Origin: Lineus longissimus
Lineage: Eukaryota; Nemertea; Pilidiophora; Heteronemertea; Lineidae
Direction: 5' to 3'
NCBI RefSeq assembly: GCF_910592395.1
Contig: NC_088310.1
Span: 7,819,501-7,883,500, forward strand
Length of the DNA: 64,000 bases
Shown piece after piece: positions 3,079 to 64,000 of this stretch (positions within the stretch are counted from its first letter, which is position 1; each line of letters begins with the position of its first letter). The translations under genes and the position numbers were made by a program. The notes beneath the pieces were generated by a model. That model made no database searches, had not been told where the DNA came from, and was given only the letters and a program-made list of their open reading frames with translations.

Positions 3079-6065
<2,987 letters not shown>

Positions 6066-14725: not shown

Positions 14726-14945
14726 CTAAATCGGTGGTGGTCCGTGAGGCCAATTCAGCATCGGGTCCAACGACTTCCTGAAGTTGTTCATCAAGACGCA
14801 ACTGTAGTCATCCTCACACATCGGGACGAGGCAGGCGACACCCAGCAGCACCAACATCAGCATCTGGAGAGGCAGCGCGGCTCGGAAGACACGAGATAGG
14901 AAGCGTCGATGGTAGGGGAGAGACTCAAGGCCCACTATGCCGGCA
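14726..14945 (-). CDS. SYNE1: Nesprin exon 39: KASH domain and stop
   Basis: The exon starts after ttcttgcag in phase 2 and ends in TAG at 14728-14726. It encodes [20 protein letters not shown], a transmembrane segment ([20 protein letters not shown]) and a 30-residue lumenal peptide containing EDDYSC, NNF and P at -11, ending GPPPI. Cys lies at -23 from the terminus, the position that forms a disulfide with SUN proteins in vertebrate nesprins. The basic RRFLSRVFR preceding the membrane segment matches the family. This exon alone fixes the gene's identity and its 3' end. Confidence 0.97.
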
Positions 14946-41900: not shown

Positions 41901-44900
41901 CAGAAAATCAAACAAGGCCATGTAGAGTCCACAGAATGTCGACCAACATTTGACCAAGGAAATCTTCGACCCATCCACAACAGAAAAAGACAGATCAGAA
42001 ATGCCCCAGGGAAGAATTCTGGAATATCATGGCCCACAAATTTTGGACTAGTCAAGTTTGAGCAGTAATTTCAATAAGAATTTAGATTTTCTCACAGAAA
42101 TTTCATTTCACCTTTTAAGAAGATATTGACGGATAAACTACAGAAAGGCATTTCATCACTTTCTGACATGCAAGTCACTTGGACATCCGACAGAGTACAA
42201 ATCAACAGTACAAATGGAGTTAAGAGTGAATACGATAATGGGATTGTGCTGAATCGAAAAATTTGATGTATTCGAGCAAAAAATGGTGCAGAGCATTCAA
42301 AACTATAAATGCAGGAATGAGTGGAAAAAAATTTGACCCATTTACAGGCTGGAATAGAAATTTGATCATTATCAATAATGTGATTATCGACTTTTCACAT
42401 TGCGAACACTTCCACAGTTTCCACTTAGCTTGGAGTGCTTAAAAATTTTGAAGGCTTTCAGGACGACCACAGTATTACCAGAATTGATATGACACATGTA
42501 CGGTATGAAGCCAGCAGGACAGGAACTTGATAATTTCAAAATTATTACCTGTTGTGTGGCTGCAAATTCTGGTCCAGATCCTGCAGCTGTTTCAATTTCA
42601 AATCCTCTTGGTTGACTGGAGACATCTTCGACTTCTTGTTTGTATATCTGGGTGCCGAACCGGGAAAGCTCGTCTGGAGAAAGCCCAGCAACCTGATCCG
42701 ATGAAATATCTGAAGCAGCTAATGTCGACAGCTGCCCCGGTGTCAGTGACGAGGTCTGGTCTGCCGATAGGCCGAGTGATCCTAACCGATACAACTCAGA
42801 TGGTGAGAGCCCATCAATTTGATATTTTGAGAATATCAAGATCATGAAAATTGATGCGTTATTTTCTCGTAAGTATCTGAGTTGTTCTGGAGTCAATCCG
42901 AGAGAAATTAACAAGATTAGCTGCTCTCGTGTCAGTCCTTTGACCTGTTCAGGAGTCAGCTGCATTCCTACCAAGTGTCCAACTTCTTGTGGATTCAGTT
43001 CACAGACTTGTTCAGGTGATAGGCGAAGTCCAACCAGTAACTTCAGTTGTTGGGCAGTCAGTCGACTGACTTGTTCTGGTTTAAGGTTCAGCCTCACCAA
43101 CAATTTCAGTTCCTCTGCTGAGAGGCCTTTCAGTTGGTCTGGAGTAAGGTGTAGTCCAATCAAGAACTTCAGTTCATCTGCTGAGAGGCCTTTCAGTTGG
43201 TCTGGAATAAGGTGTAGTCCAATCAAGAACTTCAGTTCATCTGCTGAGAGGCCTTTCAGTTGGTCTGGAGTAAGGTGTAGTCCAATCAAGAACTTCACTT
43301 CATCTGCTGAGAGGCCTTTCAGTTGGTCTGGAATAAGGTGTAGTCCAATCAAGAACTTCAGTTCATCTGCTGAGAGGCCTTTCAGTTGGTCTGGAGTAAG
43401 ATGTAGTCCAATCAAGAACTTCAGTTCATCTGCTGAGAGGCCTTTCAGTTGGTCTGGAGTAAGGTGTAGTCCAATCAAGAACTTCACTTCATCTGCTGAG
43501 AGGCCTTTCAGTTGGTCTGGAGTAAGGTGTAGTCCAATCAAGAACTTCACTTCATCTGCTGAGAGGCCTTTCAGTTGGTCTGGAGTAAGGTGTAGTCCAA
43601 TCAACAATTTAAGTTGCTCTGCTGAGAGGTTTTCAAGTTGATCTGGAGTAAGGTGTAGGCCAATCAAGAACTTCACTTCATCTGCTGAGAGGCCTTTCAG
43701 TTGGTCTGGAGTAAGGTGTAGTCCAATCGAGAACTTCAGTTCATCTGCTGAGAGGCCTTCCAGTTGGTCTGGAGTAAGATGCAGTCCAATCAACAATTTA
43801 AGTTGCTCTGCTGAGAGGTTTTCAAGTTGATCTGGAGTAAGGTGTAGGCCAATCAACAGTTTCAGTTCCTCTACAGTCAGGTCTTTCAACTGCTCAGGTT
43901 TGAGATTCAGACCTATCAGTAATTTCAGCTGGTCCGATTTGAGATTATGCAACTGTTTTGGATTCAGCAGTAGTTGTGTCAACGAAATCAGTTCCTCAGG
44001 TGACAGTCCTTCAATCTGGTTTGGCTGCAGATACAAACTGGCAAGCAACATCAACTCATCTGATGACAGGCCATGGAACTGTTCAGGCGATAACTGCAGT
44101 GCAATAAGAAGAAGCAGTTGCTCATAAGAAAGATTCTTGAGCTGGTCTTCTGTCGGATTAAGCTGCAGCAACAGACCAATTTGTCCAGCGGACAACTCAC
44201 GATGCTGATCAGGACTGAGGTTCAACTTCAGAAGATTGGAGATCTGATCTGACGTAAGCCCATCAACACTATCCAATTTCAGTCCAAGGCCAATGAGCCT
44301 CTGTAACTCTTCAGGTGTTAAAGATTCAATCTGGTAAGGTGTCAGACGTAGAGCGACCAGTTCCTTGATTTGCTCCGGGGACAGTCCCTCCAGTTGTTCA
44401 GGGCTCCAACCCAGTTTTATGAACACTATTCTCTCCTCTGGGGACAATAAACCAACATGTTTTGGAGTCAGTCTAAGCTTCATCAAGCCGCTCAACTCTT
44501 CCTTCTTGAGATCTTGTACATCATTATTATCAATTCCAAATGTCAGTGACTTCTTTATTTGATCTGCATTCAAGGCTGATAGCTGTTCTGGAGTGAATCC
44601 AATTCTGGTCAAGTAACTTAGCTGATCAGAGGAAAGACCAGCAATCTGATCTGAAGACAATTTGAGATTGGCCAATTTAGATAACTCCTCTGGAGTTAGA
44701 ACCCTCAGCTGATCTGGTGACAGTCCAAGGCTGATCAGTTTAGATAGCTCATCTGGTGTTAGACCCTTCAGCTGATCTGGTGACAGTCCAAGGCTGATCA
44801 GTTTAGATAGCTCATCTGGTGTTAGACCCTTCAGCTGATCTGGTGACAGTCCAAGGCTGATCAGTTTCGATAGCTCATCTGGTGTTAGACCCTTCAGCTG

Positions 44901-47900
44901 ATCTGGTGACAGTCCAAGGCTGATCAATTCAGATAACCCCTCTGGAGTTAGACCCTTCAGCTGATCTGGTGAAAGTCCAAGGCTGATCAGTTTAGATAGC
45001 TCCTCTGGAGTTAGACCCTTCAGCTGATCTGGTGACAGTCCAAGGCTGATCAGTTTAGATAGCTCCTCTGGAGTTAGACCCTTCAGTTGATCTGGTGACA
45101 GTCCAAGGCTGATCAGTTTAGATAACTCCTCTGGAGTTAGACCCTTCAGCTGATCTGGAGACAGTCCAAGGCCAACCAGCTCAGATAACTCCTCTGGTGT
45201 TAGACCATTAACCTGGTCTGGAGTAAGCAAAAGGAGCGTAAGTGATGCCAAGGTCTTTGCATCCAATCCTGTAATCTGGTCAGTGGAAAGACCAAAACCT
45301 GCCAGCAGTCTCAGCTGCTCTGAATCAAGGCCTTTCACTTGTTCTGGAGTCAGCCCAAGAGCAGACAGCTCTGTCAACTCTTCTGGTGTAAGGCCTTTGA
45401 CCTGTCCAGCTGTCAATTCTAATCCGGCTAGGGCAGATAATTGTTCTGATGGCACTCCTTTCACTTGTGCTGTGCTGAAGCCCATCTGCAGCAATTGTTT
45501 TACTGGGTCCAACTGCAGATTCTGCTTCTGTTCCAGAGCGATTTCAACCCCGGCAAGCTTAGCCATCTCCTCTTGAGAGAGTCCAGCAACTTGTTCAGTA
45601 CTTAAATGAAGACTTGCCAAGTTGCTTAGCTGAGCAGACGACAGACCAACGATCTGCTCAGGGTCCAATCCCAGCTGCACCAAGACAGTCAGATGCTCTG
45701 GTGAGAGCTCCTTCAGCTGGGATGGGTGTAGTCTCAGCTTTTCAACTTGTTCAAGTGAATCTGGGCTCAGCTCCATGAGGGACGAAACATTTTCCGGTGT
45801 AAGTGACATCACACAAACAAGATTGATGTTACTCGCAAGTAAGGTGGACATATCCTCTGGTGTCAAGCCAAGCTGTGTCAGGAGAATCAACTGGTCTGGT
45901 GACATGTCGGACACTTCCTCTGGGGTCAAAGGCATAGTGGCGAGAGAGGCAATCTGGGTGGGAGACAGGGCTTCCACTTGTCTGGATGTGAGATCCAAAT
46001 TGAGCAACAATTTGAGTTGATCTGCATTCAGTTCTGAAACTTGTTCCGGTGTGAGCTGCAGGTAAGCAAGCTGTGCTAAGTCAGAAGGTGACATATCAAT
46101 GACTTGTTCAGGGGTCAGATGCAACTCAACAAGAGCCATCAGTTGTAATGCTGGAAGACTACTTATTTGATGAGGATTCAGATTTAACCCAATCAGTACT
46201 TTAAGCTCTTCTGGTGAAAGATCTTTGACCTGTTCTGGAGTCATATGGAGTCTTACCAATGATTGCAGCTCATCTGGTGGAAGATCTTTGACCTGTTCTG
46301 GTGTCAGATGGAGTCCTACTAACAATTGCAGCTCATCTGGTGAAAGATCTTTTACCTGCTCTGGAGTCATATGGAGTCCTACCAATGATTGCAGCTCATC
46401 TGGTGGAAGATCTTTGACCTGTTCTGGTGTCAGATGGAGTCCTACTAACAATTGCAGCTCATCTGGTGAAAGATCTTTTACCTGCTCTGGTGTCAGATGG
46501 AGTCCTACCAACAACTGTAACTCATCTGGTGAAAGATCTTTGATCTGTTCTGGTGTTAGATGGAATCCTACTAACAATTGCAGCTCATCTGGTGCAAGAT
46601 ATTTTACCTGCTCTGGTGTCAGATTGACTAGCGCCTTCAATTGTTCACTGTCAAGTTCCCTGATCTGGTCACTGGTAAGTACCATGTTCAATAAGAACAA
46701 TATCTGCTCTCGAGAAAGACCATCTACCTGATCAGAATGAAGCCCAAGGTCTGCTAACCTTGCCAATTCCTCTGGTGAAAGGCCCTTAGCCTGCTCTGGG
46801 CTCATTTTGAGCTCAACTAATTGCTCAAGTTGGAATGTTGTCAGTTTTTGGATATATTCTGGAGTGTAATCCTGGTCACAGGATAGCTTTGACACAGCTA
46901 TTTTTTGTTCTGGTGTCATGTTCTTCGATTGTTCCTCTGTGAACCAGGTGAGTGTAGTCAGCTGTTCAGGTGGTAATGTTGAAATGTCAGGTGCCTGATC
47001 ACCCAATTTGATGAGCTCTAATATCTCCTCTTTCCTTAGTTTGCTCAGCTCATTAGGAGAAAGATGAAAGTTAACCAAAATACACACCTGTTCTGGTGTA
47101 AGCCCCTCTGTCTGTTCTGGACTGAGATCCATGCTTGACAACTCTATCAGTTGCTCAGGTGTGAATAATTCCATATATTCCTTTGACAAGGCAAGTTTGT
47201 AACACGTGGCACTCACTTGTACTAATTCCTCAGGTGTAAATGCATCAACCTGATCACTGGTGAAGCATGCGACAGTCTCCAACTGGCTGGGAGGTAACAA
47301 AGACAAACATTTAGCCTGGTCTGGGTTTTTGGCTATCTGTGTCAGATGCATCAGTTCCTCGCTGTCCAAGTATCTAATCTGATCAGTTGAGAGTTCCAGA
47401 CTTGACAGTAGCACTATCTGGTCAGGAGTCAGTGAACAATACTGTTCTTTGTCAAACCGCATGAGTTTTGAAACTTGCACTGCTGGAATTGTTGCAATGG
47501 CTGATGCCTGCTCTGGACTGAACTCTAACTTGGAGATCTGTACCACCTCTTCTGGTGACAGGGAGGCACACTGTTCCTGGGTCATCCATGTCAGAGTTGA
47601 GATCTGCTCTGGTGGAAGTGTTGCAACGGCTGATGCCTGTTCTGGGCTGAACTTCAACTTGGAGATCTGTACCACCTCTTCTGGTGACAGGGAGGCACAC
47701 TGTTCCTGAGTCATCCATGTCAAAGTTGTGATCTGCTCTGGTGGAAGTGTTGCAATGGCTGATGCCTGCTCTGGACTGAACTCTAACTTGGAGATCTGTA
47801 CCACCTCTTCTGGTGACAGGGAGGCACACTGTTCCTGAGTCATCCATGTCAAAGTTGTGATCTGCTCTGGTGGAAGTGTTGCAATGGCTGATGCCTGCTC

Positions 47901-50900
47901 TGGACTGAACTCTAACTTGGAGATCTGTACCACCTCTTCTGGTGATAGAGAGGCACACTGTTCCTGAGTCATCCAAGTCAGAGTTGCAATCTGCTCTGGT
48001 GGAAGTGTTGCAATGGCTGATGCCTGCTCTGGACTAAACTTTAACTGGGAGATCTGTACCACCTCTTCTGGTGACAGGGAGGCACACTGTTCCTTGGTCA
48101 TCCATGTCAGAGTTGCGATCTGCTCTGGTGGAAGTGTTGCAACGGCTGATGCCTGTTCTGGACTGAACTCCAACTTGGAGATCTGTACCACATCTTCTGG
48201 CGACAGGGAAGCGCACTGTTCTTGGGTCATCCATGTCAGAGTTGTGATCTGCTCTGGTGGAAGTGTTGCAATGGCTGATGCCTGCTCTGGACTGAACACT
48301 AACTTGGAGATCTGTACCACCTCTTCTGGTGATAGAGAGGCACACTGTTCCTGTGTCATCCAAGTCAGAGTTGCAATCTGCTCTGGTGGAAGTGTTGCAA
48401 TGGCTGAGGCCTGCTCCGGACTGAACTTTAACTGGGAGATCTGTACAACCTCTTCTGGTGACAGGGAGGCACACTGTTCCTGGGTCATCCATGTCAGAGT
48501 TGAGATCTGCTCTGGTGGAAGTGTTGCAACCACTAATGCCTGTTCTGGGCTGAACTCCAACTTGGAGATCTGTACCACCTCTTCTGGTGACAGGGAGGTA
48601 CACTGTTCCTGGGTCATCCATGTCAGAGTTGCGATCTGCTCTGGTGGAAGTGTTGCAATGGCTGATGCCTGTTCTGGGCTGAACTCTAACTTGGAGATAT
48701 GTACCACCTCTTCTGGAGACAGGGAAGCACACTGTTCATGGGTCATCCAAGTCAGAGTTGAGATCCGCTCTGGTGGAAGTGTTGCAACTGCTAATGCCTG
48801 TTCTGGGCTGAACTCCAACTTGGAGATCTGTACCACCTCTTCTGGTGACAGGGAGGCACACTGTTCCTGGGTCATCCATGTCAGAGTTGCGATCTGCTCT
48901 GGTGGAAGTGTTGCAACGGCTGATGCCTGTTCTGGACTGAACTCTAACTTGGAGATTTGTACCACCTCTTCTGGTGACAGGGAGGCACACTGTTCCTGGG
49001 TCATCCATGTCAGAGTTGAGATCTGCTCTGGTGGAAGTGTTGCAACGGCTGATGCCTGTTCTGGGCTGAACTCCAACTTGGAGATCTGTACCACCTCTTC
49101 TGGTGACAGGGAGGCACACTGTTCCTGGGTCATCCATGTCAGAGTTGCGATCTGCTCTGGTGGAAGTGTTGCAATGGCTGATGCCTGCTCTGGACTGAAC
49201 TCTAACTTGGAGATCTGTACCACCTCTTCTGGTGATAGAGAGGCACACTGTTCCTGGGTCATCCAAGTCAGAGTTGCAATCTGCTCTGGTGGAAGTGTTG
49301 TAATGGCTGAGGCCTGCTCTGGACTGAACTTTAACTGGGAGATCTGTACCACCTCTTCTGGTGACAGGGAGGCACACTGTTCCTGGGTCATCCATGTCAG
49401 AGTTGCGATCTGCTCTGGTGGAAGTGTTGCAATCGCTAATGCCTGTTCCGGGCTGAACTCTAACTTGGAGATCTGTACCACCTCTTCTGGTGACAGGGAG
49501 GCACACTGTTCCTGGGTCATCCATGTCAGAGTTGAGATCTGCTCTGGTGGAAGTGTTGCAACGGCTGATGCCTGTTCTGGGCTGAACTCCAACTTGGAGA
49601 TCTGTACCACCTCTTCTGGTGACAGGGAGGCACACTGTTCCTGGGTCATCCATGTCAGAGTTGCGATCTGCTTTGGTGGAAGTGTTGCAACGGCTGATGC
49701 CTGTTCTGGGCTGAACTCTAACTTGGAGATCTGTACTACCTCTTCTGGTGATAGAGAGGCACACTGTTCCTGGGTCATCCAAGTCAGAGTTGAAATCTGC
49801 TCTGGTGGAAGTGTTGCAACGGCTGTTGCCTGTTCTGGACTGAACTCTAACTTGGAGATCTGTACCACCTCTTCTGGTGATAGAGAGGCACACTGTTCCT
49901 GAGTCATCCAAGTCAGAGTTGCAATCTGGTCTGGTGGAAGTGTTGCAATGGCTGAGGCCTGCTCTGGACTGAACTTTAACTGGGAGATCTGTACCACCTC
50001 TTCTGGTGACAGGGAGGCACACTGTTCCTGGGTCATCCATGTCAGAGTTGAGATCTGCTCTGGTGGAAGTGTTGCAACGGCTGATGCCTGTTCAGGGCTG
50101 AACTCCAACTTGGAGATCTGTACCACCTCTTCTGGTGACAGGGAGGCACAATGTTCCTGGGTCATCCATGTCAGAGTTGCGATCTGCTCTGGTGGAAGTG
50201 TTGCAATGGCTGATGCCTGCTCTGGACTGAACTCTAACTTGGAGATCTGTACCACCTCTTCTGGTGATAGAGAGGCACACTGTTCCTGGGTCATCCAAGT
50301 CAGAGTTGCAATCTGCTCTGGTGGAAGTGTTGCAATCGCTAATGCCTGTTCCGGGCTGAACTCTAACTTGGAGATCTGTACCACCTCTTCTGGTGACAGG
50401 GAGGCACACTGTTCCTTGGTTATCCATGTCAGAGTTGAGATCTGATCTGGTGGAAGTTTTGCAACAGCTGATGCCTGTTGTGGGCTGAACTCTAACCTGG
50501 AGATCTGTACTACCTCTTCTGGTGATAGGGAGGCACATTGTTCTTGAGTCATCCAAGTCAGAGTTGCAATCTGCTCTGGTGGAAGTGTTGCAACGGCTGA
50601 TGCCTGTTCTGGACTGAACTCTAACTTGGAGATCTGTACCACCACTTCTGGTGATAGAGAGGAGCAGTGTTCCTGGGTCATCCAAGTCAGAGTTGCGATC
50701 TGCTCTGGTGGAAGTGTTGCAACGGCTGATGCCTGCTCTGGACTGAACTCTAACTTGGAGATCTGTACCACTTCATCTGGTGAGAGGGAGGCACACTGTT
50801 CCTGAGTCATCCAAGTAAGAGTTGCGATCTGCTCTGGTGGAAGTGTTGCAACAGCTGATGCCTGTTCTGGGCTGAACTCTAACTTGGAGATCTGTACCAC

Positions 50901-53900: not shown

Positions 53901-56900
53901 CTGTTGGACTTGGTCTTGTGACAAACTAGTCAACTGCTCTGGTGACAACCACATGATGGTAGCCAACTGATCAGGCGGGAGGGTTGCAATCAACAAGGCC
54001 TGTTCTGATGGTAACTCCTTGAATTTCTCGATCTGATCTTCTGGTAGTTCTGACATGCAGGCAATTTGTTCTGGTTTCATCTGTATCAACTCCTCCTGTG
54101 GTAATCCACATCTTAGCGATACATGTTCCAAAGTGTAACTCAATGCAGTCAGAGGTTTCAGCTCATCAACAGCAGCAGCCTGCTCAATACCCTGCGGTCT
54201 TTTCATCTGAATGGTTTTTCTACTGGCTTTACACATCATTGAGACCTGATCAACAGATAGCTGTGTTAACTGTTCTTCAGGCAACCACATGACTGTCGCC
54301 AGTTGCTCAGCTGGTAGAGTTGCAATCAAAGATACTTGATCTGGTGGCAGAACCTTTAACTTTTCAACCTGTTCTGGTCTGAGTTCTGCAATAGAGGTTA
54401 TTTGCTCTGGTGTGAGCTCAATTATATGCTCCTCTGGCAACCCTAATTGAACTGTAATTTCTTCAATCTCCATTTCTGTTGGTGTATGCGGCTTGACTTC
54501 TTTAATAACTGGAGACTGACCGACAGGAACTGTATTCTTCGGCCTACTTGGTTCAACTTCTTCCACATTCTCCATCTCTTCTTTTGGCTCGCACACCTCT
54601 TCAGCATCTTCAACAGTAAGGATGGATAGTTTCTCTGGCAGTTCAAGTAAGATGGTGGCAATATGATCTGCAGGCATCGATGCGACAAGAGAAACCTGCT
54701 CTGGTTGTAATTCCTTGAGAGTGGCAAGCTGCACTGGTTCTAACTGTGATATCACAGTCATTTGCTCTTCTGAAAGTTCTGTTACCAGCTCTTTAGGCAG
54801 GCCAGTTTTCAATGTCAGCTCCTCAACTGAGATCTGTGGCTGTTTCACTGTCACTTTATCCTCTCTTGGCTCCTGACAAATGGGTGACTGGATCAGGTCA
54901 GGTCTTTTGAGCATCCTTGGTTCACTTGCTTCGACTTGTATCATCTCATGGACTTGCTCAGGGGTGATATTTGCAATCTGGTCATCAGATAACCACAAGA
55001 TAGTAGCCAGCTGCTGTGGCGGAAGGGTCGTTATCAACGAGAGCTGTTCAGAAGGCAGCTCCTTTAGTTTAGCTATTTGCTCTGGCTGTAGCTCAGCTAC
55101 ATTGGCAACCTGATCTGGAGACAAATCACTGACTTGCTCCTGGCCTAATCCTGTCAAGGCAAGTTTCTCATCTGTCACTTTCGTACCTGGCGGTTGAATC
55201 AACGTCTGACTGTCGGGCTTGCAAATCATGCCAATCTGCTCTGTAGTGACAGTTGTGAGCTGTTCTTGAGACATCCACATAACAGTTGCCAACTTGTCTG
55301 CTGGGAGTGTAGCTATCAATGACACCTGCTCAAATGGCAGGTATTTCAGCTTTGCAAGTTGAGATGGTTTGAGTGCAGTGATATGGTCCACCTGCTCCGG
55401 AGAGAGAATGGAAACATGTTCCTTAGGCAGACCAGTCTTCAGAGACAACTGCTCAACATCAAGTGCCAATGGTCTCTCTAATCTCATCTCCTCAACCTCC
55501 ACAGATTCCTGACTGACTGCTTCTGGTACTAAATGGACTTCTCCCATTTCTGAGGTTTCTGAAGAAATTTCCCTTATCTGTTCGATTGTTATTGACAGTA
55601 AGTACTCCTTTGGCTTTTGCAGAACCCAAGAAAGTTGATCATGAGGTAGTGACACTATGAGAGACAGTTGTTCAGATGGTATACCATGTAACTTGGCCTG
55701 TTGCTCTGGTTTCAACACTTCGATATTTGCAACCTGGTCCGGTGTTAGCATTTCAACACATTCCTTTGGTAACCCTAGTTCTTCAGTAAGAATCGCCTGC
55801 AGATTGTCAAGGACTTCTTCATTTGCAACATCATCCATTTCCTCTGTGTCTTGAAATACTTCCGATTGTATTTCAACCATTGCTTCACTATCAACAAGTC
55901 CAATCCCACCACTCTCTACAGCTTCCTGAGCTAGCATTTCGGTTGCGTATTCCACTTCGTACTCCTTTGCCTTTTCAGTGCAAAGTTCTGTGATTTGCTC
56001 CACAGTGACAGTCAATAAAAACCTCTGTGGCATCTGCATGACCTTTACCCTTTGATCGACAGGTAATGAAGCAATGAGACATAGTTGTTCTGCTGGCACA
56101 TCATGGAGTTTGGATCTTTCTTCTGGTGCCAACTCTGCAACACTTGCCTGCTGTTCTGGAGACAATGACTCTACAATATCCTGTGGAAATCCGAAGTCTG
56201 CAACAAGTTGAGTAGTAAACTGCGGAACGTTGGTTGATGTTGCTTCTGGCACTGTTTCAGTTCCAACAAATGTTGAACGGTGAACCTCCGATATTCGTGT
56301 GACATATTCTGTAGTAATAGACATCAACTGTTCCTGGGTTAACCATGTTACTGTGTACAGTTGTTGAGGAGGTAGAGCGGCTATTGACAAGAACTGTTCA
56401 CGTGGGAGACTGATCAACTTTGCCACTTGCTCTGGTTCTAATGATGCAATACCAGCCAGTTGCTCGGATGAAAGCTGTGACACTAATTCTTCAGACAGTC
56501 CCAAAGACTTTACTTCATCAGGAGAAGCTCTCGGCAGTTCCTCAACTGTTTTAGGTGCAAGGCGCATATGCATGATCTGCGAGTCCGACATGTTAGTAAC
56601 AACCTCCCAAGGTAATATCGTCAGCGTTGCAATTTGTTCCGGCTGAAGAGTTGCAACCATAGAGAACTGTGATGTTGAGAGATCTTTCAACTTTTCCAAC
56701 TGTTCTGAATTAAGTTCCAAAACTCCAGCGACCTGTTCTGGTTTCAACTGTATTACTTGCTCCAGTGAGAGCCCTGTTGCATACGCAATATGTTCCGTTG
56801 TCACAGTTTCACAGGATATAACTGATCGACAGAGGGTTTGTTGTGGAACGGCTTTAAAGATCATCGCCATGCCAGGTGGCACTGGTTTCCTACTGTCGGC

Positions 56901-59900
56901 AACTCTCACTTCATCACCAGTTTCTAAGCTGATGAGGTCACTCTCGGTCACTATCACAGATTCTCCTACAACTCTTACCACTTCCCCGGGTTCAGCAGAC
57001 ACAAATGATACTCCGCCACTTCCCGAGGGAGGCTGGACGAGCACCAGACTCTCACCGAACTCGAGTTTCCTCTCTTCATCATTGACTTTGATGGGACAAC
57101 CCACAGGGACTGTAGTAATTATGGCAGGCAACAGTTCCCTGGGCTCCCCGTGAAGCACTATTAGACCATCTCTTGGAATCACCCTGTTTTCTCCCCCAAT
57201 GTCAATACTGTCGCCTGGGTACAAAATCAAAGACTCCTCCTCCTTCACGTTGATAGGATTCTGTTTCACATCATCAAGTATCTTCATGAGCACAGTCTTA
57301 CCAGAATAACATGTCTTGTCCAGCACATCTTCTTCTGCAGCCTGCTTCGTATCAATATCACGTGTCAGATCCTGAGCATCCTCCTCAGTCAAATTCTGAC
57401 TTTGAGCCATGCTTTCCTCAACAGACACAACACCTGAGGACAAGTGTGGTTCATATTGCAGAGACTTTTCACAGACATCGACAACTACAGTTTCATCATC
57501 CAAGTCCTGTGAGGTAATGGTCTGTTCAGGAGTGTCCACTCCCACAGCTTGGTCCATTTGAACCCCAGTGTCCAATCTGACCGGTGTCATATCTCCAGAC
57601 TCTGTTACATCCATAAAGCACTCCATATCAGGAATATCCTCTTCATCACTGCTAGCACCTTGACTACTGCCATGGGGAGATTCCACACAAATTCTAGAAG
57701 TGATTGTCTTTTTTGTAGTAATTGTTGTGATATGCTTTTTCATGATACTACCGTCCGCCATGGTTTCATCAAATGTTTCAGAGGTTGTTTCTTCCTCTGG
57801 GCTTCCTTCAGTTATGCCAACTTCTACTGCAATGTCAGATTCACTACTTTTTACGTTTGTTTGTATCACAGATCTTTCAAGTTCAGTTTGTTTTTCTAAC
57901 ATCTTAACCGTATGTCTTCTACTGTAATCTTCTAAGTTTTCTACACGCGAATCTACCAAGTCAGAATCAGTATCCCCAGCAATAGTTGCCCTGTTTTCGT
58001 ACACATCACTCGCCTCTTCTACTACTTCCTCAAAAGCGATGGCCTTGGAATACTGAATTGTAGGCCGGCCGCCAACGCATATAAGAGAGTCAGTGTGTTC
58101 AGTCTGCATCTCCTCATGAATAGTATGCCTAGATCTCATTTGCAGTGTTGGTCTTCTGCTTTGCTGAAGCGACGATTCAGAGCGTTCTGTTTCTGGAACA
58201 TCGGTGTCTAACAAATGAGTACTCTCAGAAACAGGCAACACAAAGGCACCAGAATACAAATTCACATTCATTGATTGACGGAATGTTTCGCCATTGGGAT
58301 CAGTTGCGGTCTCATCCATCATGTCCACATCTTGGTCACCATGGGGTATTTTCCATGCGACCATGAATTCCTCAGACTTGTTACTCTGTTCCCCCGTGCT
58401 CCCGACAGATGAACTTCTAAAACTTGACCTTGAACTCCGCATACTCTCATGGCTAATTTTCCTGTCCACGGAGGACTGAGAAGTAAACATCGGCCTTTCA
58501 CCATTCAGATCTACATTGAAACTCACTTCGTCCATACTGCTGTTTTCATCACTTATTTCCATCTCAAACTCTGCTCGAGATATTTCAACTAGCTTATCAT
58601 CAATTCTAACTAACTTCAATCTTCTTGGTTTAAAGATCAACTCCTCTGCGTGTTCGCAAGACGGCATAATACTGGTAGTATCACTCACACAAGTTGCCTC
58701 TACTGATTCAATAGGCATGATCGCTCTCCCCTGGGGCATGGTCAGAGACAGACCAGCATCTCCTAAACGTAAGGAACTCTCACTCTCATGAAGAACCTGT
58801 GTATTGACATAGGTGACGTTATTGCATATAGAATTGATCATAGTTGTTGGCATAATGTCTATCACACCGCATTTTGTTTTGACAAGTCGTCGACGTGATG
58901 TTGTTACCATTGATTCCCAATGTTCAGAGTGAGGTACTTGAACATCTGTCTCGATCAAATGCTTGACTTTCTTGTATGGCACTTCATCAGGACTCTCCCT
59001 ATCATCAGAAATAACCCTAGTTGGCGAGATTCTTGTTTTTCTGTTCAATCTGTCCGATGCAGACGGTATTGGTGACACACCTTCACCAATACTCTCCATA
59101 CCTTCGATAGGCGAACCAGGCGTATCCGAAGATTTTACCCCATGCAACAGCACCATATGACCACGCTGGACCGCCAACACATCTTGACCCATTTTGACGG
59201 TTTCTCCCGGCATTATGACACGTGTCTCCCCCGGGCGAATTCTTTGAGGCCAACCGCTCACAATGACAATTAAGCGTTCATCGACTAACTTTGTTGATGC
59301 TTCAGTGATGAATGATGGCTTGCCGTGTATGACTAACACATGACCATGTCTCGATGTCCTGGTCTTGCCATCAATACAGATACTCTGGTTATTACGCAAA
59401 ACAACAGATTCGCCCGGACGGATACTTATCGGCTGGCCCATCAGGCTGACTGCCTGATCTGGCCCAACTAACACAGTATCGACGCTGGTTGGACTATCCA
59501 TCATATTATAGTTATAATCCATCGCAAGGCTATCCAAGGCAAGACAATCACAATACAATATCACAGAATGATTTGGCTCCACAGCATATAGCTTTTCGTC
59601 TAATACAAACTTCTCTTGAGACTTTACAACAAGTCGTTGCCCGTCGCTCAAAATATGTGTCCTTTCCTGAATAATCACTTCAGTTGGCGGAACAAGCCAA
59701 ATTTCCTGGACTCCAACTGGTTGAGATTCATTCCCTGTCAATTTAACCACCACTACATGCCTTTCAGGTACGACCCAGCACCTTTCTGAGACAGTGACAG
59801 ATTCGCCCCACTTCGCAAGATACAGCCTGTCATTTTCGACAATATACGACTCGTTTTGAATTGAAATCTCCTCTCCTCTCTCAACGTAATTCGTCTCTAG

Positions 59901-60431
59901 CGTGAAAAACAAATACGGGGAAATATCCTTTGTTTTTGATAAAGAACTTCCAAAATCCTGTGAAAATTCTGAAGGCTGAAATCTTTCTTGCTCAAACTGT
60001 AATGGCTGCTGTTTCAACTGTTGGATAGCGTTATCAACTGAAATGGGCCTAAATTTCAACTCTCGTTGCTCAAGATTATCCCTTGTTTCACTGCGCTGTT
60101 CAAATAACTGTAAATTACTCGTCTCCGTGGTAGCAAGACTTGGTGGAAACCCGGCATCCAGCGACTGATAAGATTGCGTATCAGGGCTAGTCAACAAACT
60201 ACCAACACTTTCCGGTGACAGAATGATTCCGCTATCGTGTTTCCAGGCAGGGAGAGATTCCGTACTAAGCGACTGCGGACTTTGAAATGTGCTCCCGTCA
60301 GAACTGTCGTCACTTTGAACCCGTCTACGTTTTAAGGCAGGACTTTCTTTGCTCCGTTCCAATAATTGCTCCTTCTTTTCTTGGAGAGTGACGATCTTCT
60401 GCTCGTATCCTTTAATCTCTGATGCCAAAGC
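14726..60431 (-). CDS. SYNE1: Nesprin (SYNE1/2, MSP-300, ANC-1 family), 3' portion with KASH tail
   Basis: Nesprins anchor in the outer nuclear membrane through a C-terminal KASH peptide that binds SUN proteins, and reach into the cytoplasm with spectrin repeats, coupling nuclei to the cytoskeleton. Thirty-nine coding exons are visible. The first is the giant exon 60431-42549; the other 38 (41845 to 14726) total 8,442 nt, exactly 2,814 codons with stop. Summed, the window encodes about 8,774 aa. Phases are 0 at most junctions, with six compensated phase-2 and two phase-1 junctions, and all introns are GT-AG. The last 38 exons encode roughly two dozen spectrin-like repeats (recurrent RW..L and .W+ helix signatures), a Ser/Pro linker, then KASH. 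The 5' part is outside the window, so N-terminal calponin-homology domains are expected but unseen. Whether the lineage has one or two SYNE genes cannot be told here, so the symbol denotes the family. Confidence 0.93.
15584..16533. repeat. Intronic minisatellite, 40-bp unit, about 24 copies
   Basis: The unit contains gttaaatggatgaagcataa followed by gcatcaagcatgataagcag. Copies vary by a few substitutions (gcaggt/gtaggt, gcatca/gtatca), and two shortened copies lack the aaatggatgaa part. The array begins 24 nt downstream of the donor of exon 38 and fills much of the last intron. Confidence 0.95.
16558..16628 (-). CDS. SYNE1: Nesprin exon 38, pre-KASH linker
   Basis: 71 nt encoding [20 protein letters not shown] and AAE, ending phase 2 at GAGAA|GTAAAT; AA|T restores Asn at the KASH-exon junction. 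It lies between the Gly-rich exon and the membrane anchor. No known domain is visible; it is supported by exact phase fit. Confidence 0.8.
16830..16983 (-). mobile_element. tRNA-derived SINE, copy A
   Basis: On the minus strand an A-box-like tggcgcaatggg is followed about 40 nt later by a B-box-like ggtttgattcccgg, then a tail with gatagagagggtgactctct. The post-B-box tail is shared with the copy at 26404-26560, so this is a dispersed SINE family and not a tRNA gene. It lies in the intron between exons 37 and 38. Confidence 0.75.
17670..17798 (-). CDS. SYNE1: Nesprin exon 37, Gly/Ala-rich basic linker
   Basis: 129 nt, phase 0 both ends, after acatttcag and before CAG|GTTAGT. It encodes a Gly/Ala-rich run ([17 protein letters not shown]) then a basic patch ([10 protein letters not shown]). 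It is low in complexity and has no known domain. It connects the last spectrin half-repeat to the KASH region; being symmetric, it could be skipped. Confidence 0.75.
18227..18278. repeat. Three copies of a 17-bp tandem repeat
   Basis: caatggcttaagtaggg occurs three times head to tail in the intron between exons 36 and 37. No other feature is seen nearby. Confidence 0.85.
18836..19245 (-). repeat. Tandem array duplicating the end of exon 36 with its splice donor
   Basis: Five minus-strand units share gatatgtcagctctacttgg, ctcagttacagcaggc and end in (A/C)AGAG|GTAATT. The donor-like junctions fall at 19184, 19089, 19017, 18925 and 18850, so unit lengths alternate 95, 72, 92 and 75 bp. The longer units carry an extra ~20-bp block (tacttgctcagatatgtcag). 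Only the first donor keeps the frame into exon 37; reading on shifts frame and meets a stop at the second junction. Confidence 0.9.
19184..19387 (-). CDS. SYNE1: Nesprin exon 36, final partial spectrin repeat
   Basis: 204 nt, phase 0, starting [20 protein letters not shown] and ending at the first of several repeated donors (ACAGAG|GTAATT). The pattern QP+V..L...AD.LL followed by IE(S/A)KEK(L/V)H matches the last spectrin segment before the KASH linker in vertebrate nesprins. Its last 60 nt form the first unit of the 18836-19245 tandem array. Confidence 0.85.
19793..20122 (-). CDS. SYNE1: Nesprin exon 35, spectrin repeats
   Basis: 330 nt, phase 0, [20 protein letters not shown] to KYVKFV|GTAAGT. 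It contains the helix-C signature [20 protein letters not shown] and the helix-A signature [15 protein letters not shown], spanning the boundary of two repeats. Confidence 0.93.
20354..20559 (-). CDS. SYNE1: Nesprin exon 34, spectrin repeat
   Basis: 206 nt, entering in phase 1 and leaving in phase 0. It encodes [20 protein letters not shown] and [15 protein letters not shown], typical C and A helices. It can follow exon 33 directly (C|GG gives Arg) or through a candidate 30-nt microexon. Confidence 0.92.
20941..20970 (-). CDS. Candidate 30-nt microexon between nesprin exons 33 and 34
   Basis: Flanked by atatttgtag and G|GTATGA, this 30-nt segment enters and leaves in phase 1, so inclusion would add ten residues ([10 protein letters not shown] with the junction) without a frame change. 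Direct splicing of exon 33 to 34 is also in frame and gives a smoother spectrin helix. Evidence is splice motifs only. Confidence 0.25.
21148..21262 (-). CDS. SYNE1: Nesprin exon 33, spectrin segment
   Basis: 115 nt from [20 protein letters not shown] to DTDSRIR, phase 0 to 1, bounded by ttttcag and GAC|GTAAGT. Amphipathic helix with alternating charge, as in helix B/C of a repeat. Confidence 0.85.
22095..22282 (-). CDS. SYNE1: Nesprin exon 32, coiled segment after linker
   Basis: 188 nt, phase 1 to 0. [20 protein letters not shown] leads into a long helix ([19 protein letters not shown]), so the spectrin-like structure resumes after the Ser/Pro linker. Acceptor catcactag, donor CTG|GTAAGC. 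Confidence 0.87.
22427..22595 (-). CDS. SYNE1: Nesprin exon 31, Ser/Pro-rich linker
   Basis: 169 nt, phase 0 to 1. It encodes [20 protein letters not shown] and [11 protein letters not shown], a disordered, proline-directed Ser/Thr-rich segment. It ends GCAGAGG|GTAAGG; G|GT joins exon 32 in frame. It interrupts the spectrin array near the C-terminus. Confidence 0.8.
23463..23531 (-). CDS. SYNE1: Nesprin exon 30, acidic linker
   Basis: 69 nt, phase 0 both ends, encoding [20 protein letters not shown] and PDI. Short, acidic and non-helical, it opens the linker continued by exon 31. Symmetric phase makes skipping possible. Confidence 0.75.
23790..24048. mobile_element. Foldback/MITE-like element, copy 2
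   Basis: It starts gcagtaggacctctctatca and ends ttataaagaggttccactgta, the same inverted termini as the element at 1961-2160. Its interior has several imperfect repeats of aaggacacc(t/c)ct. It lies in the intron between exons 29 and 30. Confidence 0.6.
24087..24281 (-). CDS. SYNE1: Nesprin exon 29, spectrin segment
   Basis: 195 nt, phase 0, [20 protein letters not shown] to KLKTRHQ|GTAGGG. The aromatic-spaced helix [11 protein letters not shown] and the following [15 protein letters not shown] fit spectrin helices B-C and the next A. Confidence 0.88.
24463..24783 (-). CDS. SYNE1: Nesprin exon 28, spectrin repeats
   Basis: 321 nt, phase 0. Signatures: helix-[20 protein letters not shown] and helix-[21 protein letters not shown]. 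Bounded by cattttcag and CAG|GTGGGT. Confidence 0.93.
25056..25206 (-). CDS. SYNE1: Nesprin exon 27, spectrin helix A
   Basis: 151 nt completing a Lys codon from exon 26 (AA|G). It encodes [20 protein letters not shown] and [10 protein letters not shown]. Such tryptophan-bearing first helices are typical of nesprin repeats. Donor GAA|GTAAGT. Confidence 0.92.
25525..25712 (-). CDS. SYNE1: Nesprin exon 26, spectrin helices B-C
   Basis: 188 nt, phase 0 to 2. [20 protein letters not shown] to [18 protein letters not shown], ending ACCAA|GTAAGT. RW at the start of helix C is the usual spectrin signature. Confidence 0.92.
26130..26292 (-). CDS. SYNE1: Nesprin exon 25, spectrin helix A
   Basis: 163 nt, completing AG|A with exon 24 and ending CTT|GTAAGT in phase 0. 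Encodes [20 protein letters not shown] followed by [12 protein letters not shown]. Confidence 0.92.
26404..26560 (-). mobile_element. tRNA-derived SINE, copy B
   Basis: Minus-strand text contains ccaggttcgattcccgg, a strong B box, then ggtgatagagagg.caactctct, shared with copy A at 16830-16983. It occupies almost all of the 346-bp intron between exons 24 and 25, leaving about 80-110 bp on each side. The A box is not clear. Confidence 0.75.
26639..27120 (-). CDS. SYNE1: Nesprin exon 24, spectrin repeats
   Basis: 482 nt, phase 0 to 2, beginning [20 protein letters not shown]. It carries a complete repeat: [32 protein letters not shown] and [14 protein letters not shown]. Ends GTCAGCAG|GTAGGG. 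Confidence 0.94.
27443..27619 (-). CDS. SYNE1: Nesprin exon 23, spectrin helices
   Basis: 177 nt, phase 0. [20 protein letters not shown] and [18 protein letters not shown]. Two in-frame donors exist; CCAG|GTAAAG at 27443 was preferred to CAG|GTAGAA at 27464 because it preserves helix B into exon 24. The choice changes the protein by seven residues. Confidence 0.85.
27938..28081 (-). CDS. SYNE1: Nesprin exon 22, spectrin helix B
   Basis: 144 nt, phase 0. [20 protein letters not shown] to IQQGWFQ|GTAAGT. Short exon bounded by tccttaag and a consensus donor. Confidence 0.88.
28612..28938 (-). CDS. SYNE1: Nesprin exon 21, spectrin repeats
   Basis: 327 nt, phase 0. [20 protein letters not shown], helix-[21 protein letters not shown] and helix-[17 protein letters not shown]. 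Ends GGA|GTAAGT. Confidence 0.94.
29452..30084 (-). CDS. SYNE1: Nesprin exon 20, nearly two spectrin repeats
   Basis: 633 nt, phase 0, the longest ordinary exon. [20 protein letters not shown], then [34 protein letters not shown] and [18 protein letters not shown]. Donor GAT|GTAAGT. Confidence 0.94.
30515..30704 (-). CDS. SYNE1: Nesprin exon 19, spectrin repeat
   Basis: 190 nt; AG|A with exon 18 restores Arg, giving [36 protein letters not shown] follows. Donor CCAGG|GTAAAG. Confidence 0.92.
31042..31225. repeat. Pair of poly-C tracts
   Basis: Runs of about 14-16 consecutive C lie at about 31042-31056 and 31212-31225, both in the intron between exons 18 and 19. Such runs are prone to sequencing and replication slippage. 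The 155 bp between them shows nothing recognisable. Confidence 0.85.
31861..32447. repeat. Intronic composite minisatellite, 75-bp and 29-bp units
   Basis: Five composite units at 75-bp spacing (tggctgcaaa at 31906, 31981, 32056, 32131, 32206) pair a caaattacaggataatgcc half with an aatggttgcaaacaggat half. They then give way to about seven copies of the 29-bp half alone. The array starts 17 nt inside the intron from the exon 18 donor. Long open frames on both strands here are products of the repeat. Confidence 0.95.
32466..32599 (-). CDS. SYNE1: Nesprin exon 18, spectrin helix
   Basis: 134 nt, phase 0 to 2. [20 protein letters not shown] and [15 protein letters not shown], ending AACAAG|GTAGGC. 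A composite minisatellite follows 17 nt into the intron. Confidence 0.88.
33009..33341 (-). CDS. SYNE1: Nesprin exon 17, spectrin repeats
   Basis: 333 nt, phase 0. [20 protein letters not shown], helix-[21 protein letters not shown] and VVDKLQ|GTGAGT. A Gly/Ala-containing loop ([13 protein letters not shown]) separates helices. Confidence 0.93.
33722..34051 (-). CDS. SYNE1: Nesprin exon 16, spectrin repeats
   Basis: 330 nt, phase 0. [40 protein letters not shown] and [17 protein letters not shown]. Bounded by catccag and AAG|GTGAGG. Confidence 0.94.
34184..34512. repeat. Intronic minisatellite, 22-bp unit, about 15 copies
   Basis: The unit is gcaataacgggaaacatcccac with variants (aatgggaa, aacagg, cagccc for catccc). 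It starts 8 nt inside the intron from the donor of exon 15. It keeps frames open on the minus strand, but those peptides are repeat artefacts. Confidence 0.95.
34520..34846 (-). CDS. SYNE1: Nesprin exon 15, spectrin repeat
   Basis: 327 nt, phase 0. [40 protein letters not shown] and [20 protein letters not shown], ending AAG|GTAGGT. Without that donor the frame would run on into the adjacent 22-bp minisatellite. Confidence 0.93.
35100..35262 (-). CDS. SYNE1: Nesprin exon 14, spectrin helix A
   Basis: 163 nt, completing AG|G with exon 13, ending [29 protein letters not shown] then [12 protein letters not shown] and an acidic DEDE loop. Confidence 0.92.
35466..35587 (-). CDS. SYNE1: Nesprin exon 13, spectrin helix B-C
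   Basis: 122 nt, phase 0 to 2. [20 protein letters not shown] and [17 protein letters not shown]. Confidence 0.9.
35724..35867 (-). CDS. SYNE1: Nesprin exon 12, spectrin helix A-B
   Basis: 144 nt, phase 0. [20 protein letters not shown] to [17 protein letters not shown]. Confidence 0.9.
36374..36577 (-). CDS. SYNE1: Nesprin exon 11, spectrin helices
   Basis: 204 nt, phase 0. [20 protein letters not shown] and [22 protein letters not shown]. Confidence 0.91.
36819..36989 (-). CDS. SYNE1: Nesprin exon 10, spectrin helices
   Basis: 171 nt, phase 0. [37 protein letters not shown] and [15 protein letters not shown]. Confidence 0.91.
37226..37373. repeat. Two-copy direct repeat, 85-bp spacing
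   Basis: About 63 bp starting gaagaatagagaggaatac and including ggccaaaggacaccaccctg recur at 37226 and 37311 with few changes. They lie in the intron between exons 9 and 10. The origin is unclear and no coding role is seen. Confidence 0.85.
37437..37583 (-). CDS. SYNE1: Nesprin exon 9, spectrin helix
   Basis: 147 nt, phase 0. [20 protein letters not shown] to [17 protein letters not shown]. The frame stays open into the intron but loses all family resemblance there, supporting this donor. Confidence 0.85.
38022..38342 (-). CDS. SYNE1: Nesprin exon 8, spectrin repeats
   Basis: 321 nt, phase 0. [40 protein letters not shown] and QQMQDSK|GTAGGG. Confidence 0.92.
38672..38965 (-). CDS. SYNE1: Nesprin exon 7, spectrin repeat
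   Basis: 294 nt, phase 0. [20 protein letters not shown] opens with a basic, possibly phosphorylatable RRRSS loop, then [20 protein letters not shown] and [16 protein letters not shown]. Donor GAG|GTTGGT. Confidence 0.92.
39081..39314 (-). CDS. SYNE1: Nesprin exon 6, spectrin helices with acidic insert
   Basis: 234 nt, phase 0. [20 protein letters not shown], an Asp-rich insert ([13 protein letters not shown], from a GAT-type microsatellite), then [20 protein letters not shown]. The insert falls in a loop between helices. Confidence 0.92.
39748..39930 (-). CDS. SYNE1: Nesprin exon 5, spectrin helix A
   Basis: 183 nt, phase 0. [20 protein letters not shown] and [20 protein letters not shown]; donor AAG|GTTGGT. 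Confidence 0.92.
40102..40434 (-). CDS. SYNE1: Nesprin exon 4, spectrin repeats
   Basis: 333 nt, phase 0. [38 protein letters not shown] and [18 protein letters not shown]: two tryptophan-bearing A helices about 70 residues apart. Bounded by attccag and CAG|GTAGGT. Confidence 0.93.
40667..40849 (-). CDS. SYNE1: Nesprin exon 3, spectrin helix A-B
   Basis: 183 nt, phase 0. [20 protein letters not shown] to [16 protein letters not shown]. Confidence 0.92.
41699..41845 (-). CDS. SYNE1: Nesprin exon 2, first spectrin segment after the giant exon
   Basis: 147 nt, phase 0. [20 protein letters not shown] and [18 protein letters not shown]. Spectrin-type helices resume here directly after 5,961 residues of unrelated repeats. 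The same phase-0 acceptor could receive an upstream exon if the giant exon is skipped. Confidence 0.9.
42549..60431 (-). CDS. SYNE1: Giant nesprin exon, 17,883 bp, 5,961 codons
   Basis: The exon opens after tttacttttccag with [13 protein letters not shown] and closes ...GAATTTGCAGCCACACAACAG|GTAATA. Its length is an exact multiple of three and both ends are phase 0, so it can be included or skipped without a frame change. It has no internal stop. Order from the N-terminus: a short charged helix of spectrin type, a KRRR patch, Ser/Gln-rich text, beta-rich module 1, a Ser/Thr/acidic linker, beta-rich module 2, ten ~75-aa helical units, a second acidic linker with triplicated blocks, thirty-five 43-aa units, then ~4.8 kb of 21-aa units. 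None of this is spectrin. Very long nesprins with nearly identical internal repeats are known (ANC-1 of C. elegans has 903-aa repeats), but I do not recognise this repeat sequence. Membership in the nesprin gene follows from strand, phase fit and position. Confidence 0.92.
43092..43847 (-). repeat. Array C4: twelve 63-bp units
   Basis: Twelve exact units of [11 protein letters not shown] + [10 protein letters not shown] (756 bp, no indel). Two units carry the [11 protein letters not shown] variant and two have Ile for Thr in LHLIPDQ, again showing block-wise copying. Confidence 0.92.
44667..45170 (-). repeat. Array C3: eight 63-bp units
   Basis: Eight exact units of [11 protein letters not shown] + [10 protein letters not shown] (504 bp, no indel). 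Three neighbouring units share PDEL in place of PEEL, marking local spread of one variant. Confidence 0.92.
46188..46565 (-). repeat. Array C2: six 63-bp units with a two-unit alternation
   Basis: Six exact 63-bp units of [21 protein letters not shown] type (378 bp, no indel). Units alternate between [11 protein letters not shown] and [10 protein letters not shown](G/R), and between LHL and LHM, so the DNA repeats best at 126 bp. This higher-order period implies duplication of pairs. Confidence 0.9.
47394..51908 (-). repeat. Array B: 34 perfect-register 129-bp units plus one divergent
   Basis: The unit is 43 aa: [43 protein letters not shown]. The first unit's Phe codon starts at 51908 and the Phe of the divergent last unit ([18 protein letters not shown]) starts at 47522; the difference, 4,386, equals exactly 34 x 129, so no indel has been tolerated or all have been purged. 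Units differ mainly by S/A, I/V, K/Q and D/E swaps, and the DNA is nearly identical even at synonymous sites, which indicates recent homogenisation. Each unit carries one Trp and usually one Cys. A partial unit ([20 protein letters not shown]) precedes it. Confidence 0.95.
52010..53579 (-). other. Acidic linker 2 with triplicated blocks
   Basis: About 520 residues dominated by Glu, Ser, Thr and Asp ([20 protein letters not shown]). Between about 52150 and 52790 a ~90-residue block is repeated three times, each containing VA(V/I)[11 protein letters not shown], then EE(S/T)E(S/T)E(S/T)E and [10 protein letters not shown]. It is probably an extended polyanionic spacer between arrays A and B. Confidence 0.7.
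53580..56800 (-). repeat. Ten ~75-aa helical units (array A)
   Basis: Units begin with an h(G)hP+E.h motif and run through seven short modules: for unit 8, [61 protein letters not shown] and SVDQVSMM. Ten copies are recognisable, with about 45-70% conservation at key positions and 20-50-residue variable spacers rich in Glu, Pro and Ser. The divergence shows an older duplication than the downstream arrays. The Pro and Glu placed after Leu would cap a chain of short helices. Confidence 0.85.
56835..57275 (-). other. Beta-rich module 2 of the giant exon
   Basis: About 145 residues: [58 protein letters not shown] and [12 protein letters not shown]. It shares the PG(D/E)S...hhhLHG pattern of module 1, so the two are likely copies of one fold separated by linker 1. 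It ends where the helical units begin. Confidence 0.6.
57276..59129 (-). other. Ser/Thr/acidic linker 1 of the giant exon
   Basis: About 620 residues rich in Ser, Thr, Glu, Asp and Val with little hydrophobic periodicity, e.g. [19 protein letters not shown] and [12 protein letters not shown]. Probably disordered and open to phosphorylation. No domain seen. Confidence 0.6.
59130..59930 (-). other. Beta-rich module 1 of the giant exon
   Basis: About 265 residues with short alternating hydrophobic strands separated by turns such as [37 protein letters not shown] and [10 protein letters not shown]. The recurrent pattern is (R/Y)PGE(S/T)V-hydrophobic followed 8-12 residues later by hGhhhhHG. The layout recalls small beta-barrel or vault-type repeats, but I cannot assign a family. 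A related block occurs at 56835-57275. Confidence 0.6.
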
Positions 60432-63132: not shown

Positions 63133-63390
63133 AAGGGTGGATGTCGTCCTGGGTGCCGACAAATGGTACCCAGGTTCGAGATCAACTGGACAATAAGCAC
63201 CCTGGGTGCCATTACACTAGACAAATAGCACCCAGCTTCTTTTTGCCTGCCTTACGGATCTTAGGGACGACGTTTCTGTACTGCCACTGGGTGCTGTTTG
63301 TCTAGTGTAATGGCACCCAGGGTGCTTATTGTCCAGTCGATCTCGAACCTGGGTATCATTTGTCGGCACCCAGGATGACATCCACCCTTT
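63132..63390. mobile_element. Foldback element with 104-bp inverted arms
   Basis: The left arm 63132-63235 and right arm 63287-63390 are near-perfect reverse complements (e.g. caccctgggtgccattacac against gtgtaatggcacccagggtg), separated by a 51-bp spacer. High identity points to a young MITE or foldback transposon. It has no coding capacity. Confidence 0.85.
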
Positions 63391-64000
63391 CAGCTGTACT
63401 GCTCAGGACACGCCAGTCAACAATTGTTAATCTAAGAATGAATAATCACAGAGACAAACTGGGTCTATGACCCAACTCAACGCTTCATCATGTGCATGAT
63501 GGTCTCCTCTTACCGGAAAAGCTGGAAAACCGCCTAGACTCCTCAAGAAGCTGAGACACTTTTTAACTTTTCTGGACTTCATGTTATAAGTTGTAAGTTA
63601 TCCATTTATCGAGAAGTCCAATAATTCCGAGGAGATGTATAAATCTATAAGCCATCTTGTTAGCAAAATGTAGTGAAATGTGGTTTATAGTAAGACCAAA
63701 GTGAGACTAGCATGTCACAGAACGAACAAAATTAGCCTACGTATTTGCACACCCATTCCATATAATACACATGCAGTATCATTCTGTCATCCATAAAAAT
63801 ATTTGTCCACGGCATTTCAAAGCAAATTCTTTTTGAATATTCAATCAGTCAGCAGCAAAAATATTTATTTTGCGCAAAAATCAATCGCTGTTAATTTATG
63901 CAAGTTGGACCTAATAAAACATGATAGAAACCTAATTAGAATAGAAACAATGAGTTGTTAAAACTATAAAGGACTTGTCAGTAGGTGTTACTTGGCTAAT
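63391..64000. other. Right end of window, non-coding
   Basis: AT-rich sequence with no gene, RNA or repeat that I can identify; it presumably continues the nesprin intron. Confidence 0.5.

Follow-up and report, generated by a model that had tools for sequence, protein, structure and literature searches.

A 17.9-kb exon of short repeats in a likely nesprin gene of the nemertean Lineus longissimus

Results

A likely nesprin gene on the minus strand

The window, by which we mean the whole 64,000-nucleotide stretch analysed here (contig NC_088310.1, positions 7819501-7883500), belongs to a 391-Mb assembly of the Lineus longissimus genome in 30 contigs, all of which was searched; to the window we added the 220 kb upstream, with coordinates above 64,000 continuing the window numbering. 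Two features of its minus strand frame the description of the gene:

14729..14902, minus strand: KASH domain (Pfam PF10541, 86.1 bits against a cut-off of 23)
42549..60431, minus strand: giant exon, phase 0 at both ends, 5,961 codons without a stop

The KASH domain, which is the single match in the whole genome and also resembles the nesprin-1 KASH peptide in the PDB (E 8.1e-8), gives the gene the C-terminal KASH of a nesprin. Six CH-like exon frames occur at 172-180 kb (extended coordinates), on the same strand as the giant exon. Scored singly and not as a spliced domain, one of them exceeds the Pfam cut-off of 26 (49.2), one lies just below it (25.9) and two match weakly (16.8 and 14.3); the remaining two, chosen by pattern and by eye, have no CH match. 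With one of the six frames above the Pfam cut-off, we regard the N-terminal CH pair of a nesprin as present.

A small custom splice-aware exon model, run over the window and the upstream DNA, yielded 122 exons encoding ~16,460 residues (10,500 without the giant exon); the KASH exon and most of the CH exons are missing from it, and its two ends are only approximate. Left free, the model split the repeat arrays into false exons, and splicing inside the giant exon was then forbidden; because of that constraint the model is no evidence for the integrity of the giant exon. A spectrin rod is evident as 56 segments of unit length, and one of five exons scanned with Pfam passes both Spectrin (52.6 against 29.9) and Spectrin_SYNE1 (42.2 against 35), the other four comprising three sub-threshold Spectrin matches and one without any. 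With CH, spectrin and KASH exons on one strand, the gene is, as judged from its sequence, likely a nesprin.

Other features accompany the gene in the window. Beyond the KASH exon, at 4506-5394 on the minus strand, frames that by eye resemble RNA polymerase II subunit RPB7 mark a candidate neighbour gene, and a 40-bp minisatellite of 23.5 copies occupies 15586-16519, 5' of the KASH exon on the gene strand. A 22-bp tandem repeat of ~15 copies (34190-34515) immediately follows a spectrin exon, with the frame open into the repeat.

One long open exon with a frame that is very likely used

A first-pass annotation of this DNA had described a single symmetric exon of 17,883 bp, free of stops, that places a non-spectrin insert in a nesprin gene. 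All of these elements are supported here, and the extent proved exact: the exon runs from 60431 to 42549 on the minus strand (17,883 bp, 5,961 codons, 0 stops), within a stop-to-stop ORF at 60458..42384, minus strand, of 6,024 residues. Its acceptor at 60431 (ctctttacttttccag followed by exonic GCT, phase 0) scores 6.7, the 75th and 95th percentiles of the modelled exons being 5.9 and 7.3. The donor at 42549 (ACAACAG followed by gtaataatt, phase 0) is weak, with 12 of the 121 other modelled donors scoring as low or lower, and the reading frame remains open for 54 codons beyond it; the following exon opens at 41845 (tttcag followed by GAG, phase 0).

A search for introns within the giant exon gave no strong candidate. 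No donor site scoring 4.5 or more occurs inside it, where ~2 would be expected from the rate of 0.12 per kb in introns, an absence that lends weak support to an intact exon; weak donors could still serve, as at least 24 internal sites outscore the exon's own donor. At the expected stop rate of 5.8% per codon, a dinucleotide-based estimate for the first 2,800 codons, ahead of the exact arrays, the probability of meeting no stop over those codons is ~1e-73. The five other frames of the exon hold 121 to 441 stops each, and two other ORFs inside the exon (644 residues on the plus strand, 451 on the minus strand) both fall within an array of 129-bp units, a period that is a multiple of three. Given the stop-free length and the low dN/dS among repeat copies (below), the frame of the giant exon is very likely in use and under selection.

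The intron upstream of the giant exon spans 9.2 kb. A long imperfect palindrome lies within it at ~63150-63400 and has, by eye, the look of a hairpin-type mobile element.

An insert built largely of xPEQ repeats

Some 4,000 residues of the insert consist of xPEQ repeats in registers of ~11, 43 and 21 residues. Along the exon, the following parts can be told apart:

59052..59831, minus strand: Val-rich part, ~residues 201-460, beta-like by eye, of no confident family
53742..56777, minus strand: diverged xPEQ repeats of ~11 residues, ~residues 1219-2230, with autocorrelation at 11 and 22 and limits set by eye
52032..53741, minus strand: acidic low-complexity linker, ~residues 2231-2800
47523..51908, minus strand: 34 head-to-tail xPEQ copies of 43 residues (129 bp), residues 2842-4303
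42648..46805, minus strand: ~66 head-to-tail repeats of 21 residues (63 bp), a few irregular, residues 4543-5928

Valine makes up 13% of residues 201-520, and the Val-rich part matched nothing among PDB sequences at E<=1; a G8 domain considered there was set aside at 16.4 bits, below the Pfam cut-off of 22.9. The acidic linker (23% Glu in residues 2401-2800) is likely disordered. Among the 34 copies of the 43-residue unit, substitutions amount to 0.215 per synonymous and 0.041 per non-synonymous site (dN/dS 0.167), and five sets of 21-residue units, which overlap in part, give dN/dS of 0.22-0.40, values that homogenisation between copies can blur; by this pattern of substitution, the repeat copies are under protein-level constraint.

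A structure model of 16 of the 21-residue units, built on an alignment of four rows from the same protein, reached a pLDDT of 90 and predicts that short helices of 4 and 9 residues pair up along one continuous solenoid. The corresponding model of the 43-residue array (pLDDT 44.5) was not used.

In a genome-wide scan for the xPEQ family that gave 148 first-look candidates, 38 of the 39 scored lie in the giant exon, and the 39th lies in an unrelated minisatellite. A protein search with the unique head of the exon found no homologue among 7,991 candidates scored, in a database that may hold few animal proteins and that therefore says little about conservation; another search gave one weak match, to a hypothetical protein. 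The 21-residue array drew 29 matches (7,989 candidates scored), most without names, the named ones being bacterial, and a viral fold library gave nothing at E <= 0.001. Pfam matches of the arrays to Phage_TAC_6, CAAP1 and TAL_effector were taken as composition effects.

The insert appears to interrupt a single spectrin repeat

Where the insert enters the rod can be read against the exon structure of the gene, in which one spectrin unit corresponds either to one exon of ~315-330 bp or to two exons of ~150 and ~165 bp. In exon register the unit begins with helix B: in the Pfam Spectrin profile, which has 105 positions, residue 5 of a full-unit exon falls on position 49. We built a unit profile from 54 units, leaving out the two that touch the giant exon, and used its first 29 positions for a test of the exon's head. 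Three segments are concerned:

60345..60431, minus strand: head of the giant exon, residues 1-29, fitting helix B from model position 1
41699..41845, minus strand: next exon, 49 residues, phase 0 at both ends, fitting the second half of a spectrin unit
40667..40849, minus strand: second exon downstream, 61 residues, fitting the first half of a spectrin unit

The head matches profile positions 1-27 with its residues 1-27, scoring 9.5 bits. Of 2000 shuffles 4 do as well, and none of the 1968 windows elsewhere in the giant exon does (1897 of them scored); 52 of the 104 other exon starts of the gene also reach 9.5 bits, as for a typical start. A profile trained separately, on the 40 units that lie upstream of 75 kb, gives the head 8.3 bits (equalled by 22 of 5000 shuffles). 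For exon 41845-41699 the second half of the unit is a better fit than the first (6.4 against 1.4 bits; 4.4 against 2.6 with the separate set, where the score is reached in 44 of 3000 shuffles and the margin in 152 of 3000). This exon covers model positions ~54-109 only, and the exons after it alternate between first and second halves. The preceding exon, 69913-69599, has no Pfam match, and its first half scores poorly with the separate model, at 1.5 bits.

The unit profile detects no helix C at the end of the giant exon that would close the repeat, and among 257 stop-to-stop pieces of the two flanking introns it picks out no spare first-half spectrin exon, the best gene-strand score being 3.7 bits against 7.2 in the plus-strand control. 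The register scores are weak and come from short segments, and the picture rests on their mutual agreement: the giant exon would occupy the slot of a first-half exon, keep its helix-B start and run on into the insert, and together with exon 41845-41699 it would carry one interrupted spectrin repeat. The non-spectrin character of the insert stands, as first annotated, and its size is corrected from ~5,960 to ~5,930 residues, the first ~27-29 being spectrin-like.

A second non-spectrin exon rich in TQT

Upstream of the giant exon, the same gene model contains another non-spectrin exon, of 2,262 bp and 754 residues, again in phase 0 at both ends:

88857-91118 in window-extended coordinates (contig 7908357-7910618), minus strand: non-spectrin TQT exon

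It holds 11 TQT tripeptides, where 5000 shuffles gave a mean of 0.18 and a maximum of 3. TQT is the anchor of motifs bound by the dynein light chain LC8, although many TQT peptides do not bind, according to the available part of PMC6607443. The exon has the look of a ladder of many LC8 sites within a nesprin; in the open-access literature, no work treating nesprin together with LC8 was among the matches listed.

Discussion

We consider it somewhat more likely than not that the giant exon, which begins like helix B and continues for ~5,930 residues of mostly short repeats, is spliced in and forms a stretchable spacer between the nucleus and the cytoskeleton. An ancestral first-half spectrin exon of ordinary size would have been invaded by xPEQ repeats, or would itself have grown them, and the repeats would then have expanded in tandem inside the exon. 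The product would be one KASH protein of ~16,500 residues (~10,500 without the giant exon), in which the helical solenoid and the acidic linker may act as a spring, giving the tether between actin and nucleus more reach and compliance. Both acidic linkers and solenoids of short helices could plausibly behave as springs, and the mechanical role is one that we infer. The weak donor is compatible with regulated use of the giant exon.

If an insert-free isoform exists, its clean form would drop the 49-residue exon along with the giant one, joining 69599 to 40849. That the two exons form such a two-exon cassette, whose skipping keeps the spectrin register and gives a linker with or without the spring, is a tentative possibility. 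The two jointly hold the one interrupted repeat, and their joint omission (69599->40849) yields higher join scores than omission of the giant exon only, at 233.0 against 228.5 bits and, with the separate training set, 97.4 against 91.5; the differences are small, however, and exon 41845-41699 is an ordinary exon that could be constitutive.

A function other than that of spacer or spring is conceivable, if rather doubtful: the solenoid could serve chiefly as a scaffold at which many copies of a partner dock. Dozens of similar units are under constraint, and another non-spectrin exon of the gene carries the 11 TQT anchors of LC8-type motifs (PMC6607443, in the part available), but the giant exon itself contains neither TQT nor the motif [LMTAFSRI][DE]W[DE], and the scaffold has no known partner.

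The first-pass annotation had gone further and proposed that, by its symmetry, the giant exon could be skipped to leave a conventional nesprin; neither step is supported as argued. Phase 0 at both ends is found in 91 of the 122 modelled exons (lengths divisible by three in 92 of 122) and, being the rule of the gene, says nothing about skipping, and, with exon 41845-41699 matching a second half, joining 69599 to 41845 would leave that half orphaned in a rod missing half a repeat. We therefore judge it improbable that the giant exon alone is the cassette, with inclusion giving the giant form, even though its phases would permit skipping, its donor is weak and human nesprin genes are reported to undergo extensive alternative splicing, cassette exons included (PMC3388047, as far as the accessible text goes).

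It is likewise improbable that the giant exon belongs to isoforms with an alternative start in the 9.2-kb upstream intron or an alternative end in a retained downstream intron, which would be CH-less or KASH-less. CH-less and KASH-less isoforms are described for Drosophila Msp300 and mammalian nesprins (PMC8616381, in the portion available), and the frame does continue past the donor; against this, neither AATAAA nor ATTAAA occurs in the last 300 bp of the exon or in the intron that follows it (0.7 kb), and the acceptor at 60431 is good. Long tandem arrays are difficult to assemble, but an assembly artefact, a pseudogene or a separate same-strand gene is highly implausible in view of the 5,961 open codons, the in-frame splice sites, the constraint between copies and the helix-B head in register.

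The way in which nuclei are held and pulled depends on nesprins, whose length and compliance are usually credited to spectrin repeats. Here, a different material, built of repeats and predicted to be helical, appears to have been added within one repeat, raising the residue count by more than half, which would make the gene a natural experiment on the effects of linker length and elasticity, with testable junctions in 69599->60431, 69599->41845 and 69599->40849. It would also exemplify tandem repeats growing within an exon of a conserved gene with the frame kept, and the very short solenoid unit is of interest to protein design. A bolder picture, which we offer as speculation and think unlikely to hold in full, is of a KASH protein of ~16,500 residues with an optional spring (~66 units of 21 residues and 34 of 43) that enters or leaves as a two-exon block, one splicing choice letting cells set how far the link from nucleus to actin reaches and how stiff it is, and with the TQT exon loading dynein light chain on the same linker.

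The vertebrate giants nesprin-1 and nesprin-2 (SYNE1, SYNE2) share with this gene a CH pair, a spectrin rod, KASH and many exons, and have several isoforms. Their rods, however, are described as virtually uninterrupted series of 74 and 56 spectrin-like repeats (PMC3646009, in the part available), whereas here ~5,930 non-spectrin residues in one exon would break one repeat after helix B, and a second non-spectrin exon, of 754 residues, lies upstream. Caenorhabditis elegans ANC-1 is also a KASH giant with a middle of tandem repeats not recognisable as spectrin, but those are six near-identical repeats of 903 residues, modelled as spectrin-like bundles (PMC8139857; see also PMC4091705; both from the portions accessible); in the nemertean gene the units are of ~11, 43 and 21 residues (129 and 63 bp for the latter two), with no near-identical repeats of ~900 residues, and they stand beside a full spectrin rod. 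Drosophila Msp300, a CH/KASH giant as well, has isoform-specific exons that divide nuclear anchoring from other roles; its isoforms arise from starts, ends and splicing, and the available part of PMC8616381 describes no comparable repeat exon. The paper retrieved with 'nesprin' and 'giant exon' (PMC4924313) concerns, in its accessible part, only exons of nesprin-1-giant.

No report of a comparable nesprin repeat exon was among the open-access matches listed, and on present sequence grounds we would class the gene among the nesprins and the giant exon as a new variation of its rod. Spectraplakins likewise carry a large non-spectrin module, of plectin repeats, beside spectrin repeats, but the repeat is a different one and the classical members, to our knowledge, have no KASH. 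In its predicted short-helix units joined into a continuous solenoid, the 21-residue array may resemble TAL-effector-type superhelices, which ranked first in a Foldseek search (E 1.4e-4, probability 0.99) with a model for which this protein alone supplied the repeats.

At the level of sequence, the 'LTPEQ'-like short repeats recall the ALTTAQ repeat (PF20080) and bacterial repeats of DotG/IcmE type, labels borne by many of the 29 protein matches to the 21-residue array. PF20080 scores 101.9 and 39.8 bits on two pieces of the exon against a cut-off of 26.4, scores possibly caused by composition, since several other, unrelated Pfam families pass their cut-offs too; for the larger piece, 42549-51902, ALTTAQ is not listed at E<=0.01. 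The proteins are different and identity is low (22-46% by BLASTP; 23-25% in those long low-complexity alignments that were inspected), and the likeness is likely convergence. Some of the ALTTAQ-labelled matches also carry G8, through chance or shared history.
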